Shown here piece after piece: positions 1-7,778 of a DNA stretch of 40,771 bases (positions are counted from its first letter, which is position 1; each line of letters starts with the position of its first letter). The translations under genes were made by a program, and so were the position numbers. Origin of the DNA: Winogradskyella sp. (GTDB lineage: Bacteria > Bacteroidota > Bacteroidia > Flavobacteriales > Flavobacteriaceae); assembly GCF_016744625.1 (NCBI RefSeq), contig NZ_JADGDZ010000013.1, forward strand, positions 17,660-58,430. The letters run 5' to 3'. The notes under the pieces were generated by a model. The model had not been told where the DNA came from and did not search any database. It saw nothing but the letters and a program-made list of their open reading frames with translations.

Positions 1-591
1 TTGAATAGGTGCTTAGATCAATACCAGCTTCACCAGCCACTTCAATAGTATCATCTACATCAGCACCAAAATCATCGTACTTAATTTCGTTAATCCAAAT
101 ATTTTCGGCAACAGGAGGTGTTCCAAAAGTCTGTAATGGATTAATGTTATTATAGCTTTGAGAGATTTCTTCTATCCAAGAAAAATCAGAATACATTGTC
201 CCATCACCTTGCAATTGAATGGATAAACCAGCTGATGAGCTAGCGCCAGAAATACCAATATCAGTAGATGTCATTCCGTTAGCAGGTCCATCAATAGCCA
301 TAAATGATCCTTCATAGCTCAAAAACTGAATAACCGCATTAGAGGGCCCAACTAGAGCAATAGCGTCAGGCCCATTTTGTATGGCTCCAAAGTTAAAAGC
401 TATAGCACCAAATCCATTTTGTTCGTCATCGATTGTACCAGAAAGCAGAGTAGTATTATACATAGCACCATTACTACCATTATAGAGCACTATTGAATAG
501 GTGCTTAGATCAATACCAGCTTCACCAGCCACTTCAATAGTATCATCTACATCAGCACCAAAATCATCGTACTTAATTTCGTTAATCCAAA
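1..591 (-). repeat. In-frame 492-bp tandem repeat, 99 bp perfectly conserved
   Basis: Positions 1-99 are identical to 493-591 (offset 492 bp, 164 codons). The identity stops at position 100 versus 592, where the first copy meets the signal-peptide junction. It continues leftwards to the window edge, so the true identical length is at least 99 bp. Both copies encode the start of an LTD-like domain (WINEIKYDDFG). Confidence 0.9.
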
Positions 592-673
592 GGTTTTGAG
601 CACTTAATGTTGTGCCAAATAAAATTAATCCAATGATTAAAATTTTTTCTTTAAGAGTAATTGTGTTTTTCAT
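1..673 (-). CDS. Secreted repeat protein with lamin-tail-like domains, 5' part only
   Basis: This is the N-terminal part (224 codons) of a minus-strand gene that runs off the left edge of the window, so its full length and C-terminus are unknown. The start is ATG at 673. Residues 1-26 form a signal peptide (MKNTITLKEK, a hydrophobic core, then LSAQ). The mature part begins WINEIKYDDFGADVDD, then an IEVAG segment and a YSIVLYNG segment. That pattern resembles the lamin-tail-like (LTD) beta domains found at the N-terminus of many secreted Bacteroidota proteins. After 164 residues the same domain starts again with identical DNA, so the protein is a tandem-repeat surface or secreted protein. A T9SS sorting domain may lie beyond the edge but cannot be seen. 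The function is unknown. The gene shares an upstream sequence block with the fibre protein at 950-4807. Confidence 0.8.
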   Translation of the reverse strand, partial: MKNTITLKEKILIIGLILFGTTLSAQNLWINEIKYDDFGADVDDTIEVAGEAGIDLSTYSIVLYNGSNGAMYNTTLLSGTIDDEQNGFGAIAFNFGAIQNGPDAIALVGPSNAVIQFLSYEGSFMAIDGPANGMTSTDIGISGASSSAGLSIQLQGDGTMYSDFSWIEEISQSYNNINPLQTFGTPPVAENIWINEIKYDDFGADVDDTIEVAGEAGIDLSTYS

Positions 674-727: not shown

Positions 728-782
728 TATATTGATTAATAGCGTATAGAAATTTATAGGTTAATTGTTATTGATAAAATAT

Positions 783-843
783 TTTATTGGGAATGCGTAC
801 TTTTTTTAGTGGCTAGCTTAGAACACTTGGTGAGTGTTTTTTT
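783..843 (-). promoter_or_regulatory. Possible LytTR-type operator block, copy 1 (weaker)
   Basis: TTTATTGG at 783-790 and TTTAGTGG at 805-812 form an imperfect direct repeat 22 bp apart. AACACT at 822-827 and AGTGTT at 833-838 follow as an inverted repeat, then a T-run. From 805 the block aligns without gaps (offset 4157) with 4962 onward, upstream of the fibre gene: TTTAGTG, ten bases, AACACT, six bases, GTGTTTTT. It lies 110-170 bp upstream of the minus-strand ATG at 673. The inverted repeat plus T-run could also act as a small plus-strand terminator, but no plus-strand gene precedes it. Confidence 0.4.
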
Positions 844-861
844 ATAACCTAATTTGAGAAT

Positions 862-892
862 GAAAAAGCCACTCCCTACAGCAGCTTTTTCC
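862..892 (-). terminator. Candidate terminator of the fibre-protein gene
   Basis: Read on the minus strand, AAAAAGC (890-884) pairs with GCTTTTT (869-863) around a 14-nt loop. The hairpin lies about 60 bp past the stop codon of the gene at 950-4807 and ends in a T-run. The stem is mostly A-T, so support is moderate. Confidence 0.45.
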
Positions 893-949
893 TCAAAAAC
901 ATAATCGTTCTTTCAAACAATTACTACTCAATGTTCAATTATTAATTGT

Positions 950-3900
950 TTAATCTTCAGTTGTACTTGCAGTTTCAGAAGTGGTCGAATTACTTTTGTT
1001 TTCTAGTGCAAGTAAACGCACTTCTAATTGCTGAAGTTTGCTTAATCGCTGTTTTAGAATTTTGTTTTCTGCTTCAAGAGTTTCCATTTTTAAATTTAAT
1101 TCTTTGACCTCTTTTTTTAATTCTTGTGTAGCTTTAATTGCAACTACTCCTGTGGCACTATAATCCATGTGATATACATCTTCTTCTTTGTGATAAGAAA
1201 TTAATTCTGGATATATTTTATCCACATCTTGAGCAACCATTCCTATGTAGCTTTTAAGTCCATTATCGGCTTTATATTTGTATGTTAATGGTTGCAATTC
1301 CATGAAATTATCCCAAGAGAAATACAAATCTTTAAAATCCTTTTTTAATCTCCTATCTGATGTTGCAGTATATACTCCTGAAACATCATTAATATTAGAT
1401 ATCGATGTCGTACCTTGATTTGTAGAATAGAATCTTAAATCACCTGTGCCTGATGATACATACATGCGTATCCAATTATTGTTATTTGTGTTCTGTAATT
1501 TCATACCACTTGTAGTACCACTATTTCCATGAAATACATGAAAATCAATATCCGGAAATCCTGCAATACCTGCTCTATTTGCACTAGCATCAATTCTAAG
1601 CATATTAGCATTGCTATCAGACTCTACTCTGAAATCTCTGTTAGCACCTTGCTCGTTAAAAACAAACTGTGAATTAGTATCAAGATCCACACTAACATTA
1701 CCATTTTCTCTCAGTATAAACCTAGCATCATCGCCATCATCGAGCATTTGCGCTATAATTGTACCTGTTGTATTAACATCTCGCCATACCATATCTCGTC
1801 CTAATGTGGTTGTTCCTGCATCATTGATTTCAAAAACACCAGTTCCGTTATCTTGGATAATAAAGTCTCCTGTGTTACTTAAGTTAAAACGTGTATCAAA
1901 ATTTCCGTAAGTAATTGCAGTGTCTTCTGTAAGTGCACCTCCCCATTGTATGCGATCTGCTCCTGCGTCAACATTAAGTCCGTTGTTGGCGGTTGCAGTT
2001 ACGGTTAAGTTTCCTGATGTTCCGCCACCAGTAAGTCCTGCGCCAGCAGTAATAGCTGTTACATCTCCAACAGTTGGTGTTTGCCAAGACAGGACACCAG
2101 CAGCATTAGTGGCCATTACTTGACCGTTTGTACCTCTAGACGCTGGTAAAATATAATTATTTGTCGTCGTAGTACCAACAGAAACTCTCCCTAAAAAGTA
2201 ACCAGCATAACTGTTAGATTTTGTTGCACTACTATAGATTCCATAGTGTGTACCACCAGCACTAGAAGAGATAAGGTTGTATGTTCCGTATTTGTTTCCT
2301 GTTCCTGTTGCTGAGTTATTAAATACATTTCTAGAGCCATAATAATCACCATTAGCTGTATTACTAAATGTTGTATATGTTCCATTCATTCCACTAGTTC
2401 CTGGTGTACCAGTTGTAAATGAGTTCCTAATACCTGTAGTTTCAGCTGCTGTTGATGCTTCCTGAAATTCGTTAAACACACCATATAAATTTGCAGCGCT
2501 AGTACCACGCATACCATTGTATGTGCCATAATGATTTCCTGTACCTGCATTATCTAGGTTGTTGAAAGTACCAAACTGAAAGCTGGGTGACGCACCTGCT
2601 ATAAAGTTTCTGGTTCCATATTGGCTGCCAGAAGCTGTAGAACTTATAGTATTAAAAACACCATATTTCTGCCCTGCACCTGTGCCATCATTACGTGTGC
2701 GAATAGCATGACTCCGACCTGTACCACCACTAGATTTTACAACATAAATGCCATTGGTTTCATCAGCAGTATTATCATTTTTGTCTACATATATAACTTC
2801 TAATTCATCTCCTGTATTTTCTACAAGATGTAAAGGATGTGCTGGGTTTGAAGTGCCTATACCTATATCACCAGAGTCTTCTACAAAAAACACATTATCA
2901 CTATCATCTTGTATAGCGAAGTCACCTGTGCTATTAAGATTAATAGCAAAGCTTCTAGTGCCTTGACTAATAGTAGTATTTTCGATCAGTGCTCCTCCTA
3001 ATCGAATATCATTGGCATTAGTGGTTAATCCATTTGTGCCAACTGCGTTAATAGTAACATTGCCAGTAGCACCACCACCAGTTAGACCTGTTCCTGCAGT
3101 AATTTGGTTAATATTTCCTGGATTATCCAAACTAGATAGATTTACAGTTTGTGCAGTACCATTTTCTATACCAACTGTTAAAATATTTGTAGAGGTATTG
3201 AATATTAAGTTCTCAATATCTTGGTCGTCAGTACCTGTGCCATCCTGTAAACCAGATAAATCTATAGTAGTAGTATTTCCGGCTTCTTCTATTTCTAAAT
3301 TTGTGCCAGTTAAGATACCAGAAGTGATTATTTCGTTCCCAATTACAGTATCAGCATCACTTGCAATATGTGTGTTTAAATTTATTGTATTTGTGCTAAT
3401 AGCAGTGCTATTATTTCCAATATCCACATTGTTATTATTGATATCAATAGTGTTGTTACTTATATTATTGGTATTGTTAGTTATAATAGTAGTATTGTTT
3501 CCAATATTTAAAGTGTTGAAACTAATATCGGACGTATTGTTATTGATGCCAGTTGTATTTAGGATAATGTTGTTGGCATTGGTGATAATATCACTAGTAT
3601 TATTATTTATATCGCTAGTATTTATTAAGATATTAGCCGCATTAGTGGTAACTTCTGTAGATTGGTCTAAAGTTGATACATCAACAATTTCATTTGAGCC
3701 GTTTTGAATACCAATTGTTAGGTTTGTACCTGAGAGTCCTGAACCAGAAATGTTTTGATTATCGGTATTTGCAAATACTGTTGAGGCATTAACAAAATTT
3801 ACTTGTCCTAAGTTGTCAATTTGCATAATGTCTCCATTATTCCCTCTAAAAGAAGGTAAACTATAATGATTTACATTTGTTGTTCCAATAGAAACGGCAC

Positions 3901-4807
3901 CACTGAAATAACCAGCATAACTTCCAGTCTTAAGAACTTCAGAGTATAATCCATAATGAGTACCACCAGATGAAGTTGGAACTGATGTGTAAAAACCATA
4001 TCTTGATGCATTTCCAGCTCCTTCAATATCAGATTTGTAACCATATAAAGCTCCAACATTAACATTAATATTCATGTCCATCCAACTTCCATAAAAATTA
4101 CCTACCCTTGACGTTGGTTGGTCGATACGATATAAGAACCCTGAAGCTTCCGAATAAGTAATATTAGAATTGGTAACATATACACCAGCAGTTTGAAGTA
4201 AGCTATGTTCACTAAAGGCAATATCGGCTCGAAAATTATTTAAATCATTTGTGCCCACAATAGCAGATTTATTACCAGTACTATTTGTACCATTTTGATT
4301 AACAACAAGTCCATTTCCAGTATTATGGTCTTTGTTAATTACCATGGCATCTACACCTGAGTTTATATTTCCAATGTCAATAGTGTTAGAATTATTAGTG
4401 ATGGTTAAATTATAATTTCCTGGAGTATTTGTCCCTATAAGAGTTCTTGCAGTAATTAAATCTCGATAAATGTTGTTTCCTGATACTGTCCAATCATTAT
4501 CATTAAGGCTACCTGACACAATTTTAATCCAGTTACTAGCGGTATCATCCCAATAATAAAAACCTTTACCATCTGCAGCTGAGCCAGTGTAAAAAATAAG
4601 TATACCATCTCGAGTAGCTCCAGGAGCTGTAGGAAATACACTCATACGAGGAATTAGAATTCCGTCATTATTGGCAGGACTTGTTGCACTACTAGCCGTA
4701 ATGTCTAAACTGGCTTGAGGGTCTGTATTACCGACACCAACTTGGGCATTTATGGCATAAAAAAATAGAAATAGTACTAAACTGAAGCGTAGGTTTTTAA
4801 CGTTCAT
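950..4807 (-). CDS. Fibre-like surface protein with S74 intramolecular chaperone domain
   Basis: A 1285-residue protein counted from ATG 4807. The frame is open up to a TTG at 4843, but ATG 4807 gives a clean signal peptide (MNVKNLRFS, hydrophobic core, INAQ). The next part, VGVGNTDPQASLDI, is typical of flavobacterial tail-fibre-like proteins. Residues 393-470 hold Ile at every seventh position in an Asn-rich stretch, as in trimeric adhesin stalks. Residues 283-338 and 853-908 are an internal duplication (THYG, SYAGYF, ILP/SLP, RG.NG). Two GLTGGG segments also repeat. The C-terminus has the S74 chaperone signature TSDRRLKKDF, with Ser1150 and Lys1155 spaced as in the endosialidase self-cleavage dyad, then a coiled coil. 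It is probably a trimer that cleaves itself after folding. No T9SS sorting domain is seen. The ligand is unknown. Candidate operators lie upstream, and the two-component pair is next door. Confidence 0.85.
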   Translation of the reverse strand: MNVKNLRFSLVLFLFFYAINAQVGVGNTDPQASLDITASSATSPANNDGILIPRMSVFPTAPGATRDGILIFYTGSAADGKGFYYWDDTASNWIKIVSGSLNDNDWTVSGNNIYRDLITARTLIGTNTPGNYNLTITNNSNTIDIGNINSGVDAMVINKDHNTGNGLVVNQNGTNSTGNKSAIVGTNDLNNFRADIAFSEHSLLQTAGVYVTNSNITYSEASGFLYRIDQPTSRVGNFYGSWMDMNINVNVGALYGYKSDIEGAGNASRYGFYTSVPTSSGGTHYGLYSEVLKTGSYAGYFSGAVSIGTTNVNHYSLPSFRGNNGDIMQIDNLGQVNFVNASTVFANTDNQNISGSGLSGTNLTIGIQNGSNEIVDVSTLDQSTEVTTNAANILINTSDINNNTSDIITNANNIILNTTGINNNTSDISFNTLNIGNNTTIITNNTNNISNNTIDINNNNVDIGNNSTAISTNTINLNTHIASDADTVIGNEIITSGILTGTNLEIEEAGNTTTIDLSGLQDGTGTDDQDIENLIFNTSTNILTVGIENGTAQTVNLSSLDNPGNINQITAGTGLTGGGATGNVTINAVGTNGLTTNANDIRLGGALIENTTISQGTRSFAINLNSTGDFAIQDDSDNVFFVEDSGDIGIGTSNPAHPLHLVENTGDELEVIYVDKNDNTADETNGIYVVKSSGGTGRSHAIRTRNDGTGAGQKYGVFNTISSTASGSQYGTRNFIAGASPSFQFGTFNNLDNAGTGNHYGTYNGMRGTSAANLYGVFNEFQEASTAAETTGIRNSFTTGTPGTSGMNGTYTTFSNTANGDYYGSRNVFNNSATGTGNKYGTYNLISSSAGGTHYGIYSSATKSNSYAGYFLGRVSVGTTTTNNYILPASRGTNGQVMATNAAGVLSWQTPTVGDVTAITAGAGLTGGGTSGNLTVTATANNGLNVDAGADRIQWGGALTEDTAITYGNFDTRFNLSNTGDFIIQDNGTGVFEINDAGTTTLGRDMVWRDVNTTGTIIAQMLDDGDDARFILRENGNVSVDLDTNSQFVFNEQGANRDFRVESDSNANMLRIDASANRAGIAGFPDIDFHVFHGNSGTTSGMKLQNTNNNNWIRMYVSSGTGDLRFYSTNQGTTSISNINDVSGVYTATSDRRLKKDFKDLYFSWDNFMELQPLTYKYKADNGLKSYIGMVAQDVDKIYPELISYHKEEDVYHMDYSATGVVAIKATQELKKEVKELNLKMETLEAENKILKQRLSKLQQLEVRLLALENKSNSTTSETASTTED

Positions 4808-4940
4808 AACAACATGTTTTGGAGCCTTCTTCTTTGTAAACAACTAAGGGGTAATCTATGTAGAGAAGTCGTTTAAAAGCGTAATAACTGATTAATAGCT
4901 AAGTAAAGCTATCTTATAACCAAGGTATTAGGATTTTGTT

Positions 4941-4997
4941 TTTAGTGAATCTAACTTTTTTTTTAGTGAGTGCAGTTTAACACTAGTTATGTGTTTT
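4941..4997 (-). promoter_or_regulatory. Putative LytTR operator upstream of the fibre gene, copy 2
   Basis: TTTAGTGA occurs at 4941-4948 and again at 4962-4969, exactly 21 bp apart, the second preceded by a C and a nine-T run. An inverted repeat AACAC (4979-4983)/GTGTT (4991-4995) follows, as in copy 1. On the minus strand the repeat reads TCACTAAA. A degenerate -7-like TACCTTG (4927-4921) lies just downstream. LytTR domains are known to bind direct repeats about two helical turns apart; the link to the adjacent regulator is inferred. Confidence 0.55.
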
Positions 4998-5021
4998 TAA
5001 GAGGGTACCGTTTAGCATTAA

Positions 5022-5711
5022 TTATATGCTTTTTAACTTACTCACTACTAAACTTTTTTGTGATGCACTTAATGGTATGCTATCGTTTTCTAGAGAAATA
5101 GTGGTTTTATCAACTCTTAAGACGTGTCTTAGGTTGACCACATAAGAACGATGTGTCTTTATAAAATCATTACCTTCTAATTGCTCAGAGACATGCTTAA
5201 GTGTATGAGGTACTAAATAAGTTTTTGTAGTTGTATTGATATAGCAATAGTTGTCAAATGCTTTAAGGTGACTGATAGTGTTTTGATTAATACGATGCAG
5301 TCTGCCTTCATGTTTAATGGTTAAAAAATGTTGTTTTGAATCGTTATAGTTATGCCAAGCGAGTTCAATATTGGTGCGTAAACCTGTTTCTGTAAAAGGT
5401 TTAACAATGTAACCCAGAGGATTAGTGTGTTTAACGCGTTCTATGGTATTAGGATCTGTTTGAGACGAAAGAAATAAATATGGTAAGTTTTTTTTGTCTA
5501 ATTCAGTAGCTAAATCGACACCATCTTTATCTCCCGAAAGCTGAATATCTATAAGTGTCAAATCTGGTTTTAGTAATTCTATATCTCTTAAGGCTGAAGT
5601 ATAATCTTCTGCGTCACCAACGGCAAAAAAACCTTGTTTACGCAAAGCTACTTCAATAGTAGATACAATTAATGGCTCGTCTTCAACGATGTAGATATTT
5701 AGGGGTTTCAA
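5022..5711 (-). CDS. LytTR-family response regulator
   Basis: A 229-residue DNA-binding response regulator, probably the partner of the histidine kinase encoded just upstream (109-bp gap). The receiver domain (about 5-120) shows the acidic pocket E10/D11, phospho-acceptor D55 (LIDIQLSG), Ser82/Ser83 in the usual Thr/Ser position and K104 (YIVKPF). The LytTR domain (about 128-227) shows the typical FIKTHRSYVVNLRHV segment. The start codon is TTG at 5711; the frame is closed by a TAG further upstream and no in-frame ATG precedes the conserved IYIVEDE strand, so TTG is the only sensible start. The gene has its own upstream region with the 21-bp direct repeat, which suggests autoregulation. Target genes are inferred to be the two secreted-protein genes downstream. 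Confidence 0.9.
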   Translation of the reverse strand: MKPLNIYIVEDEPLIVSTIEVALRKQGFFAVGDAEDYTSALRDIELLKPDLTLIDIQLSGDKDGVDLATELDKKNLPYLFLSSQTDPNTIERVKHTNPLGYIVKPFTETGLRTNIELAWHNYNDSKQHFLTIKHEGRLHRINQNTISHLKAFDNYCYINTTTKTYLVPHTLKHVSEQLEGNDFIKTHRSYVVNLRHVLRVDKTTISLENDSIPLSASQKSLVVSKLKSI

Positions 5712-5731
5712 ATTATATATATTTAGAACTT

Positions 5732-5758
5732 CAAACTAATGAATCAATATTTTATCAA
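5732..5758 (-). promoter_or_regulatory. Candidate promoter of the LytTR regulator
   Basis: On the minus strand TTAGTTTG (5739-5732) matches seven of eight positions of TAnnTTTG. A TTG (5758-5756) lies 16 bp upstream, slightly closer than the usual 19-20 bp. It sits directly downstream of the putative operator at 5767-5795. Confidence 0.35.
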
Positions 5759-5766
5759 TGTTTTTT

Positions 5767-5795
5767 TTTAGTGAAAGCCTCTTTTTTTTTAGTCA
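5767..5795 (-). promoter_or_regulatory. Putative LytTR operator upstream of the regulator, copy 3
   Basis: TTTAGTGA at 5767-5774 and TTTAGTCA at 5788-5795 are 21 bp apart, the second again preceded by a C and nine T. Over 29 bp this matches the block at 4941-4969 at all but about six positions, most of them in the spacer. It lies 56-84 bp upstream of the TTG start of the response regulator, a fitting place for autoregulation. Confidence 0.55.
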
Positions 5796-5819
5796 ATACT
5801 GTTTTTTAATAGTATCACC

Positions 5820-7778
5820 TTAAAGTAAATTATACTTTTTCATTATTAAGGTTGCTTCCGTTCCTTTATTTATTTCAGATTTATAACTTAAAGTTGCATT
5901 TAATTTTTTCGATAAAGCTTTCATCAGCGTAATACCGAAAGAGGTGTTTTTAACTTCACCTTCAAAGCCTTTGCCATTATCAATAACTTTTAATGCTAAA
6001 TGCTCACCTTCTTTATGAAACTTAATATCAATTTTGCTTTCAGAAGTCATATTCTTAAAAGCATGCTTTAAGGTATTCACAATAAGCTCATTTAAGATTA
6101 AACCAACAGGAGTAATAGTTTCAATATCTAGAACCAATGGTTCTGCGTTAAGTTGATATTGAATAGATTCTGATTCAAACTGATGGCTTTCAAAAATATC
6201 ACGTACTAAGTCACTAAAATAATCTTGAGTATTAATACCAATAAGCTCGTCTTTATTATATAACCTCTGATGAATTAGGACCATAGAACGCACTCTGTTT
6301 TCGGCTTCTTTTATGGCGATTTTTGCTTCTTTGTCCTCAACACTTTCTGATTGTAAGTACAATAAACTAGATACAATTTGAAAACTATTCTTTACACGAT
6401 GATGTGTTTCTTTAAGAAGTATGTTTTTCTCATCAACAGTAGCTTCTAATAATTTCTTCTGCTTTGCAAGCTTAATGCTCTGTTTTTTATTTCTGTAAAA
6501 GAAAAATCCTAAAACAAGAGCTAATAGTAAGCCTAGTCCAGCTAAATAGGAATACAACTTACTTTGCTTTTCCTTAGCTTCAAGTTCTAATGCGTTAAGT
6601 TCTTGAGTTTTGTTAAACTCGTATTGCATCTCTTGCTGAGTTTGTTTTTTGATATTATTTTCATTGAAAATAGAATCGTTGGTTTTAGTTAGAAGCTGAT
6701 AATTCTCTAAGGCTTTGTTGTACTCACCAGCAGCTTTGTAAGCTTTAGATAAACAATCGCAAGCATCAGATGTTAGTTCTAGATTCCCGGCTTCAATAGC
6801 TAATTGTTTTGCTTTACTACAGTCTTTTATCGCTAAATCGTATTTTTTAGTTTCATAAAAAAGACTTCCTCGATAGTTTTTTGAAATAGTTAAATTTTCA
6901 ATAACTCCAGCATCTTTATAGAATTGATGAGCTGCATTTAAATTTATCAGTGCTTCATTATAATTTTTTAATTTAGAATGTGCATTACCAATATTTAAAA
7001 TTGAACTCATAATAAAGCGCTTAGGTGCCTTACCTTTTTCTTTAAGTACTTTACCCTCTTCAAATAGTACTAGTGCTTCATTGTGCTTTCCTTGATTTAG
7101 TAATAAGTCACCTTTGTTTGAAATAATAATTCCTGCATTAACAAAAGAACCTAAACTTAGTGCAGCTTTATAGGCATTATTATAATAATCAGCAGCCTTA
7201 TCAAACTCTTCCATTTGATTATAATAATTGGCCAATGAATTATTAAGTACCAAACTTTCACCTTTAAATTTATGACGTTGTGGCTCATCTAACCTTAAGG
7301 TGTCAATTTTGTCTAAAGAACGTTTAGAATTAAGCATGGTAGCAATAGCAAGGGAAATATTTCCTTGTTTTCTATAAATGGCGCTTTTGGTCATTAGGTT
7401 AGAAGCTCTTAAAAAAGGCATGGTGTCATCGTTTACATAAGAAATTGACTTGTCTAAGTATACTACTGCAGAATCCAATTGACTATTATAATAGAAGAAA
7501 TTACCTAAGGAGTAGTAAGAATTAGCAAATTGCTTTGCATCCTTATTCGCTTTAGAAATGATAATTGCTTTGTCTATTAAAATACGAGAGTCTTTAGAAT
7601 AACGGAGCTGACCAGCATTGCTAGTAAGTGTTCTTATTTTTTCGAAATTATCATCGTAAGTATCTACAATGTTAATTAAGGAATCAATGATTTTTTGTTT
7701 ATCTAAATTGTTTTGAGATTGTAAAAGACTTGAAAAGCATAACAAGAAAATAAGGTAAGGGTATTTCAATTTAGCCAA
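5820..7778 (-). CDS. TPR-containing HisKA_2 sensor histidine kinase
   Basis: A 652-residue membrane sensor kinase. Residues 1-22 are a signal peptide (LIFLLCFSSLLQSQ). Residues about 30-370 form TPR-like helical repeats outside the inner membrane. A coiled coil (about 375-407) leads to one transmembrane helix (about 409-427). The HisKA_2 domain has the phospho-acceptor motif ETHHRVKNS (His459/His460), followed by a HATPase domain with N box LNELIVNTLKHAF (562-574), G1 DNGKGF (600-605) and SFGITLM (613-619). This layout is common in Bacteroidota kinases paired with LytTR regulators. The 26-bp gap to the glycosylasparaginase gene upstream allows read-through from the glycan locus. The TPR part may bind a protein or envelope signal; the ligand is not known. 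Confidence 0.92.
   Translation of the reverse strand: MAKLKYPYLIFLLCFSSLLQSQNNLDKQKIIDSLINIVDTYDDNFEKIRTLTSNAGQLRYSKDSRILIDKAIIISKANKDAKQFANSYYSLGNFFYYNSQLDSAVVYLDKSISYVNDDTMPFLRASNLMTKSAIYRKQGNISLAIATMLNSKRSLDKIDTLRLDEPQRHKFKGESLVLNNSLANYYNQMEEFDKAADYYNNAYKAALSLGSFVNAGIIISNKGDLLLNQGKHNEALVLFEEGKVLKEKGKAPKRFIMSSILNIGNAHSKLKNYNEALINLNAAHQFYKDAGVIENLTISKNYRGSLFYETKKYDLAIKDCSKAKQLAIEAGNLELTSDACDCLSKAYKAAGEYNKALENYQLLTKTNDSIFNENNIKKQTQQEMQYEFNKTQELNALELEAKEKQSKLYSYLAGLGLLLALVLGFFFYRNKKQSIKLAKQKKLLEATVDEKNILLKETHHRVKNSFQIVSSLLYLQSESVEDKEAKIAIKEAENRVRSMVLIHQRLYNKDELIGINTQDYFSDLVRDIFESHQFESESIQYQLNAEPLVLDIETITPVGLILNELIVNTLKHAFKNMTSESKIDIKFHKEGEHLALKVIDNGKGFEGEVKNTSFGITLMKALSKKLNATLSYKSEINKGTEATLIMKKYNLL

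Follow-up and report, generated by a model that had tools for sequence, protein, structure and literature searches.

Direct repeats and a candidate small RNA at a LytTR fibre locus of Winogradskyella suggest a local regulatory switch

Introduction

Which genes does a LytTR-family response regulator control when it is encoded beside a large fibre gene, and which DNA and RNA elements would carry that control? The question is raised by a stretch of 40,771 nucleotides (nt) from the genus Winogradskyella, family Flavobacteriaceae (G000:C111:17660-58430; the window), in which the minus-strand gene order is kinase, LytTR regulator, fibre, repeat protein. A first-pass annotation of this DNA had pointed to T-rich direct repeats upstream of the last three genes and had read them as the operators of one LytTR regulon. 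Our analysis suggests, with a probability of about 0.72, a local two-component switch, in which LytTR would activate itself, an S74-type fibre and an RNA of ~66 nt, the loop of which would then tune the fibre and regulator mRNAs.

Results

The DNA elements of the proposed switch and the two genes behind them are as follows.

5767..5796, minus strand: 21-bp direct repeat TTGACTAAA / TTCACTAAA of lytTR, candidate autoregulatory operator (shuffles, conservation)
4941..4970, minus strand: 21-bp direct repeat CTCACTAAA / TTCACTAAA of the fibre gene, candidate activator operator (shuffles, conservation)
784..813, minus strand: third block of the first-pass annotation; half-site 805-813 in register, other half degenerate (p=0.64 as a pair)
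5022..5711, minus strand: LytTR response regulator, 229 amino acids (aa), TTG start (Pfam Response_reg PF00072, 1.8e-18; LytTR PF04397, 7.8e-16)
950..4807, minus strand: fibre gene, 1285 aa, with a C-terminal Peptidase_S74 chaperone domain (Pfam, 3.5e-12)

The lytTR block consists of TTGACTAAA at 5796-5788 and TTCACTAAA at 5775-5767, and the fibre block of CTCACTAAA at 4970-4962 and TTCACTAAA at 4949-4941, all on the minus strand with unit starts 21 bp apart. The consensus is TTYACTAAA-N12-TTYACTAAA, that is, 9-nt units and a 12-nt spacer. Two such pairs with at most one mismatch and a spacing of 20-22 bp are present in the window, against a mean of 0.015 and a maximum of 1 in 200 dinucleotide shuffles. 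For the lytTR and the fibre intergenic region taken separately, the best pair has one mismatch, which in each case none of 2000 shuffles equalled. The first-pass annotation had thus described the blocks at 4941-4969 and 5767-5795 correctly, in letters and coordinates as well as in their distances to the start codons (56 bp for lytTR, 134 bp for the fibre). The weaker copy that it placed at 783-812 did not hold up as a repeat pair: with the TTYACTAAA unit, the best pair in that intergenic region has five mismatches, and 64% of 2000 shuffles do as well (p=0.64); with TCACTAAAA as the unit, the best pair has three. The one good unit of this block, GCCACTAAA (813-805), lies 70 nt before a GCTATTAATC module, which is the spacing of a true upstream unit, and the third block may therefore be a degenerate or half-site promoter. 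An artefact of T runs, considered for all the blocks, was ruled out by the shuffles for the first two and stands for the second half-site of the third. Of the one-regulator regulon, then, the operator-like repeats at lytTR and the fibre, conserved with the gene, are retained, and the repeat protein as an equal third target is not.

A genome-wide scan, as proposed with that annotation, gave seven sites with up to two mismatches in the window's own genome, against two for the backward pattern. The three sites with no or one mismatch are all found no farther than 7 kb from lytTR; C111:16716-16747 is the one of these that falls beyond the window.

Conservation was assessed by searching 68 genus genomes and 299 family genomes with the regulator (match, E<=1e-45), which returned matches in 19 and 21 genomes, respectively; the closest homologues in named genomes include those of W. 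eximia (88%), W. psychrotolerans (86%), W. eckloniae (83%) and W. algicola (82%). We read 36 stretches covering 35 loci, in addition to the own locus, and left three family loci (G139, G158, G302; 42-45% identity) unread. Each stretch with a lytTR match also gave a kinase match. A pair was counted at one mismatch or fewer, at 20 or 21 bp and on the lytTR strand, with C or T accepted at both C positions. By this measure the pair is present in all 31 loci with a lytTR of at least 48% identity, 14 of 14 in the genus (~65% or more) and 17 of 17 in other genera; in L129, L130 and L136 it lies 2-6 kb away from lytTR rather than adjoining it. In the genus it stands directly 5′ of lytTR in 12 of 14 loci and 5′ of the next gene, the first target, in all 14. 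Three of five distant genus loci (~40-45%) hold a pair at up to two mismatches. Pooled over 32 stretches (the first two locus groups and L132, which continues L131) and spacings from 10 to 60, pairs with at most one mismatch on the lytTR strand number 52 at 21 bp, five at 20 bp and at most two at any other spacing; the opposite strand has one. At least 13 exact matches were found across the genus, and among those listed (47 genomes) 12 lie within 7 kb of lytTR, the remaining one being in G001, a genome without a close lytTR. In many genomes, two-mismatch sites occur about as often as the backward control does, and the regulon therefore looks local. The DNA layer of the switch is about as strongly supported as sequence comparison allows. 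A repeat pair followed directly by a GUAGGG hairpin was also seen at G018:C25:77661-77796, with no close lytTR gene; this may be a relic or an orphan.

Downstream of the repeats lies a core promoter that the first-pass annotation had missed, as it had a fourth, perfect pair outside the window and an RNA motif common to the fibre mRNAs.

4904..4911, minus strand: -7 box TAGCTTTA (15 of 17 genus target promoters have TAnnTTTA here)
4890..4899, minus strand: GCTATTAATC, predicted 5′ end of the fibre transcript (position in 17 of 17 genus targets)
734..743, minus strand: GCTATTAATC module of the repeat-protein promoter (sequence)

In all 17 genus target promoters, GCTATTAAT (once GCTACTAAT) starts 49-51 nt downstream of the first base of the second unit. 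TAnnTTTA precedes it in 15 of them, with L115 and L118 deviating. The flavobacterial sigmaA box is given as TAnnTTTG at -12 to -5 in the accessible text of PMC9723704; on that basis, transcripts would start at or near the G of GCTATTAATC, with the centre of the repeat pair at about -57. The promoter reading and the predicted start are supported by G074, a genome without a close lytTR, in which the same small-RNA gene stands behind the consensus TAAGTTTG. The spacing and promoter position also resemble those of published LytTR sites, in keeping with the earlier proposal that direct repeats two helical turns apart are a LytTR binding mode: the sections of PMC4847170 available to us give repeats of 9-11 nt with spacers of 11-13 nt, a range that includes the 9-nt units and 12-nt spacer found here, and those of PMC4227749 place the AgrA repeats near -60.

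Two further candidates were rejected. GCTATTAATC is not a regulon-specific signature, as the own genome has 56 copies against four of the reversed pattern (30 of the 56 were inspected), and the inverted repeat TAGCT-N6-AGCTA is not conserved between loci as an operator would be. Several of the GCTATTAATC copies lie in a repeated, mostly intergenic element of G000, approximately TTCATGTG..GCTGTTCGCTATTAATCATT..GAACATGCTCGTTTCATG (L262, L268, L271, L278, L283, L284, L290). Between promoter and start codon, the fibre leaders of several other genera (in L126-L136) share stretches such as CTTTTTTTGCCC and CTTAACCTAC.

The last element of the array is the perfect pair at C111:16716-16747, which lies 913 nt beyond the window and 6 kb from lytTR, facing a convergent gene. 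No open reading frame (ORF) of 60 aa lies behind this orphan pair. Instead, a hairpin, AAAAAGUCGCU-GUAGGG-AGCGACUUUUUU, ends ~66 nt past the predicted start of the orphan promoter and delimits a candidate small RNA of ~66 nt (C111:16677-16611). A short repeat-driven unit with a GUAGGG terminator is present in seven of the 14 genus loci. In five of these (own genome, G041, G037, G032, G054) the unit has no ORF behind it and faces a convergent gene, and in G016 and G053 an ORF comes after its terminator. Outside the 14-locus group the unit occurs in G045 and, without the repeat pair, in G074; G057 and G069 carry a short unit with a AGUAGGGA hairpin at the same place, behind a palindrome of the NarL type. 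Judged by its sequence, the unit has an independent promoter and an intrinsic terminator without an ORF. The terminator and a small hairpin at the 5′ end are common to nine aligned copies, in which 96.7% of cells are paired; three of 17 pairs are changed on both sides, and the covariation score was reached by one of 500 shuffles, although the independent changes are few. Searches against Rfam assigned the unit to no family and gave only two tRNAs above the gathering score (eight sources) and three matches far below it (four sources). A model of the unit (R1) gave nine matches below 1e-10 which are its nine source sequences, so they show its distribution and are no independent confirmation; the model was built without a tenth unit, L116. 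In two other genera, G118 (L135) and G155 (L138), a repeat promoter beside lytTR is followed by a hairpin with a UUGAGGAG-type loop and by no ORF of 100 aa on that strand; these units are possibly another small RNA of the same kind.

The same loop closes the fibre transcript.

858..895, minus strand: fibre terminator hairpin, loop GUAGGG (hairpin model, E<=0.001)

At E<=0.001 the hairpin model finds two sites in the own genome, the fibre terminator and the small-RNA terminator. The 12-mer GCTGTAGGGAGC occurs once in the own genome and in 18 of the 68 genus genomes, its reversed control in none of the 68. At E<1e-5 the model gives 52 matches in 21 of 68 genomes, comprising 13 of the 14 lytTR genomes (all except G060) and 8 of the 54 others. 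In the 14 lytTR genomes the matches number 38, of which 27 fall no more than 16 kb from lytTR and 11 at other places. As 19 such hairpins served to train the model, this association holds partly by construction. Of 54 loop hairpins in the loci read, 26 lie at most 420 nt 3′ of an S74-type ORF (blastp; some ORFs count for two hairpins).

A complement of this loop is found near the start of the fibre mRNA.

4830..4880, minus strand: stem-loop of the fibre-mRNA leader (folding)
4859..4868, minus strand: CUUCUCUACA, a complement of the GUAGGG hairpin loop, within the loop of the leader (folding, seed test)

We counted CUCUAC in all 17 genus target leaders and folded 11 of them. A CUCUAC-type site is present in 11 of the 17. 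In nine targets it lies inside the loop of the leader stem-loop, fully unpaired in seven and at least 71% unpaired in two; in G054 and G069 it is immediately 5′ of the start codon. The consensus of 11 leaders has compensatory changes in three of five pairs and a weak consensus energy, near zero. Sister loci place the complement elsewhere: the perfect complement CUCCCUAC stands just 5′ of the start codon of a NarL-type regulator in G056 and G064 (UUCCCUAC in G046) and at fibre codons 5-7 in G056 and G074, and CCCUAC stands near -10 of a third fibre type. It is missing from the regulators of G074 and G065 and from the fibre of G065.

The seed UGUAGGGAGC was then paired with positions -120 to +30 of ORFs of at least 150 aa in 21 loci. 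Mean pairing energies were -10.1 kcal/mol for 27 fibres and -9.56 for 22 regulators, compared with -6.99 for 23 kinases and -6.9 for 108 other ORFs, and -9 kcal/mol or below was reached by 21/27 fibres, 7/22 regulators, 1/23 kinases and 12/108 others. Against the 108 neighbours, the difference has p values of 1.5e-9 (fibres), 1.3e-4 (regulators) and 0.32 (kinases). None of 200 shuffled seeds was as extreme, and the two best shuffles themselves hold GUAGGG. Two held-out loci from metagenome bins, L246 and L249, had no part in forming the pairing idea; their lytTR genes are 74% alike in DNA. In both, a UGUAGGG hairpin follows the fibre gene, and the fibre leader, which ranks second of nine ORFs in L246 and first of nine in L249, contains UCCCUAC or UUCCCUACA. 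Neither feature was present in L247 (Algibacter), a new locus, or in L248, which is the same locus as L128. A scan of the own genome with TYTCYCTACA gave 21 sites versus 28 in the control, and so no enrichment; the first letter of this pattern mismatches the own leader (CTTCTCTACA), and the scan is thus no test of the own leader site.

The regulator itself appears to have been exchanged in sister loci. G056, G046, G064, G065 and G074 have the same chromosomal place and a kinase from the same family, which Pfam identifies as TPR-HisKA_2 in G056. The regulator carries a GerE domain in G056 and is a homologue of that protein in the other four. In NarL-type fibre promoters the palindrome TCACCCAAAAGGATGA, or a close form (TCACCC-AAAA-GGATGA), lies 50-53 nt 5′ of GCTATTA; G046 has a diverged palindrome only and no GCTATTAAT. 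The third fibre type adjoins a gene of 1329-1345 aa; in L113, the case tested, this encodes a hybrid kinase with an AraC-type domain. GUAGGG hairpins are present in NarL-type and third-fibre-type sister loci alike. By these comparisons, sister loci swap LytTR for a NarL-type regulator and mostly keep the RNA layer. The TCACCC-AAAA-GGATGA palindrome was noted in L230, L231, L233-L235, L115, L116 and L139, beside a NarL-type regulator where read, and it shares a locus with the LytTR type in G057 (L115), G069 (L116) and G094 (L139).

The remaining genes of the array are listed below.

5820..7778, minus strand: sensor histidine kinase, 652 aa (Pfam: TPR repeats, HisKA_2 and HATPase_c)
2..673, minus strand: repeat protein, 282 aa in the genome, truncated at the window edge (open reading frame)

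The kinase gene, with HisKA_2 and HATPase_c, adjoins lytTR, as in a two-component system. The regulator combines a receiver with a C-terminal LytTR DNA-binding domain, both scoring above the Pfam cut-off, which places it in the LytTR family. A PDB search with the regulator gave 26 matches, all to the receiver part (query residues within 2-133) and none to the LytTR domain. The S74 domain of the fibre is a chaperone-of-endosialidase domain (PF13884, 3.5e-12, residues 1150-1202). No Pfam or NCBIfam family matched the repeat protein. Between the repeat protein and the small RNA, L032 encodes a protein with a type IX secretion C-terminal sorting domain (L032:6807-7469, minus strand).

Discussion

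The observed repeats, their conservation, the promoter register, the hairpins and the complementarity can be joined into one chain of predicted steps. The kinase would activate the LytTR regulator, which would bind as a pair to the two TTYACTAAA half-sites, on one face of the helix and centred ~57 bp before the start, and recruit RNA polymerase to the TAnnTTTR promoter. Its own gene, the S74 fibre gene and the ~66-nt small RNA at the end of the array would thereby be activated. The GUAGGG(AG) loop, shared by the small RNA and the fibre terminator, would then pair with CUUCUCUACA/CUCCCUAC sites in the 5′ regions of the fibre and regulator mRNAs and tune their translation or stability, most likely as negative feedback. 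Binding, activation, expression of the small RNA and the pairing are thus predictions, and the sign of the pairing, repression, is a guess, made because several of the complementary sites overlap starts. We regard the RNA layer as a strong computational prediction with exceptions.

Those exceptions, together with some features of the tests, weigh against the proposed switch. Two of the five distant LytTR loci (L120, L123) have no repeat pair in the gene-upstream place, and the lytTR promoters lack GCTATTAAT. CUCUAC is missing in six of the 17 genus targets (G010, G050, G060, G053 and the first targets of G003 and G039). G010 and G050 nevertheless keep the leader stem-loop and the 3′ hairpin, with no stand-alone RNA seen; G003 and G039 have a leader site and no stand-alone RNA seen; G053 has the RNA and no leader site. 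The p values of the seed test count related genes as if they were independent, the loci tested are the ones that gave rise to the pairing idea, and just 7/22 regulators reach -9 kcal/mol, as do 12/108 neighbours. The start of the own lytTR pairs with the seed over only ~5 bases, as read from the sequence. In other genera, among ten loop seeds in eight loci, the fibre leader is the best partner for two (G124, G197), which is near chance.

The imperfect link between small RNA and leader site also suits a rival account, in which the GUAGGG hairpins are no more than terminators that came along when fibre genes were duplicated, the last unit is a relic promoter with its terminator, the CCCUAC sites arose by chance and the DNA repeats alone matter. 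The hairpins do occupy terminator places, as the 26 of 54 behind S74-type ORFs illustrate, and the small RNA is a candidate drawn from sequence. Inheritance would leave it a puzzle that other terminators in the same loci have unrelated loops, that the complement is placed differently by gene (leader loop near -60, -10, codons 5-7 in NarL-type fibres, -12 in NarL-type regulators) and that 0/200 shuffled seeds match the true one. We consider this account possible, although doubtful. Alternatively, the GUAGGG loop could bind an RNA-binding protein of the GGA-loop type instead of mRNAs, in line with the G-rich terminator loops of some related loci in other genera (for example CGTGGGGA, ATGGGA and GAGG). 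The complementary sites at fibre and regulator starts would then go unexplained, and the likeness to CsrA-type GGA loops is a putative one; we judge this improbable.

At the DNA level, the predicted binding of LytTR to the repeats might belong to another regulator, and a pair with 0-1 mismatch does occur in each of two genomes, G018 and G001, that have no close lytTR homologue. In 17 loci of other genera, however, the pair accompanies this LytTR gene, and the NarL-type sister loci carry a different element, TCACCCAAAAGGATGA, at a similar place, which makes another binding protein very unlikely. Chance T runs or generic A-tracts near promoters might be expected in an AT-rich genome with long T runs, yet the shuffle tests, the spacing histogram and the genome-wide rarity of the pair leave this explanation with next to no credit.

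The analysis offers a concrete layout of operator and promoter, open to testing, for a LytTR regulator of Flavobacteriaceae. It points to a dedicated switch for large S74 fibres and puts forward a candidate small RNA for the family, of which the seed, the targets and a transcriptional regulator of its own are predicted. Sister loci that change the regulator and mostly retain the core promoter, the 5′ end and the RNA motif would amount to a natural experiment in regulatory evolution. More tentatively, the loci might share an RNA code, kept through the exchange of LytTR, NarL-type and hybrid AraC-type regulators, in which the 3′ ends of fibre mRNAs and the small RNA carry GUAGGG hairpins that pair with CUCCCUAC-type sites; these sites lie at the 5′ ends of both the fibre and the regulator mRNAs. 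If so, expressing one surface fibre would set its own output and that of the others, as a form of feedback or of mutual exclusion.

No description of this system appeared among the full-text matches listed, judged by title and opening of the abstract, in a search outside of which most subscription journals lie; several known systems resemble it in part. At agr P2/P3, a LytTR regulator drives its own operon and RNAIII. The locus described here is similar in that a LytTR regulator would serve itself and a regulatory RNA from paired direct-repeat promoters; it differs in that its RNA is far shorter and unrelated in sequence, and no peptide-signal genes were seen. As far as the accessible texts on AgrA of Staphylococcus aureus and YpdB of Escherichia coli go, both share with this locus a LytTR domain and two direct repeats of ~9-10 nt, 11-13 nt apart and upstream of the promoter, and the AgrA repeats near -60 correspond to a pair centred ~57 bp before the predicted start here. 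Unlike in those systems, the unit is TTYACTAAA, which is not among the published sites compared, the -7 box is of the flavobacterial type, the kinase is of the HisKA_2/TPR type, and the targets would be S74 fibres and a ~66-nt candidate RNA. In RepG of Helicobacter pylori, the available text of PMC8295292 describes a short RNA whose terminator loop pairs with target mRNA leaders. The candidate RNA has, by its sequence, the same anatomy of a short RNA with a terminator loop complementary to target leaders and may work like RepG in that respect, a likeness from which class membership cannot be claimed. Unlike in RepG as described there, a G-rich loop would face a C/U-rich target, RNA and target have a promoter type in common, and the target mRNA bears the same hairpin at its own 3′ end. 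Within the genus itself, NarL-type and hybrid AraC-type two-component systems stand beside fibre genes and differ from the LytTR locus in their GerE or AraC-type helix-turn-helix regulator and in their upstream element. They have in common with it S74 or related fibres, the GUAGGG hairpin and, mostly, GCTATTAATC at the 5′ end, and the NarL-type loci also occupy the same chromosomal place.

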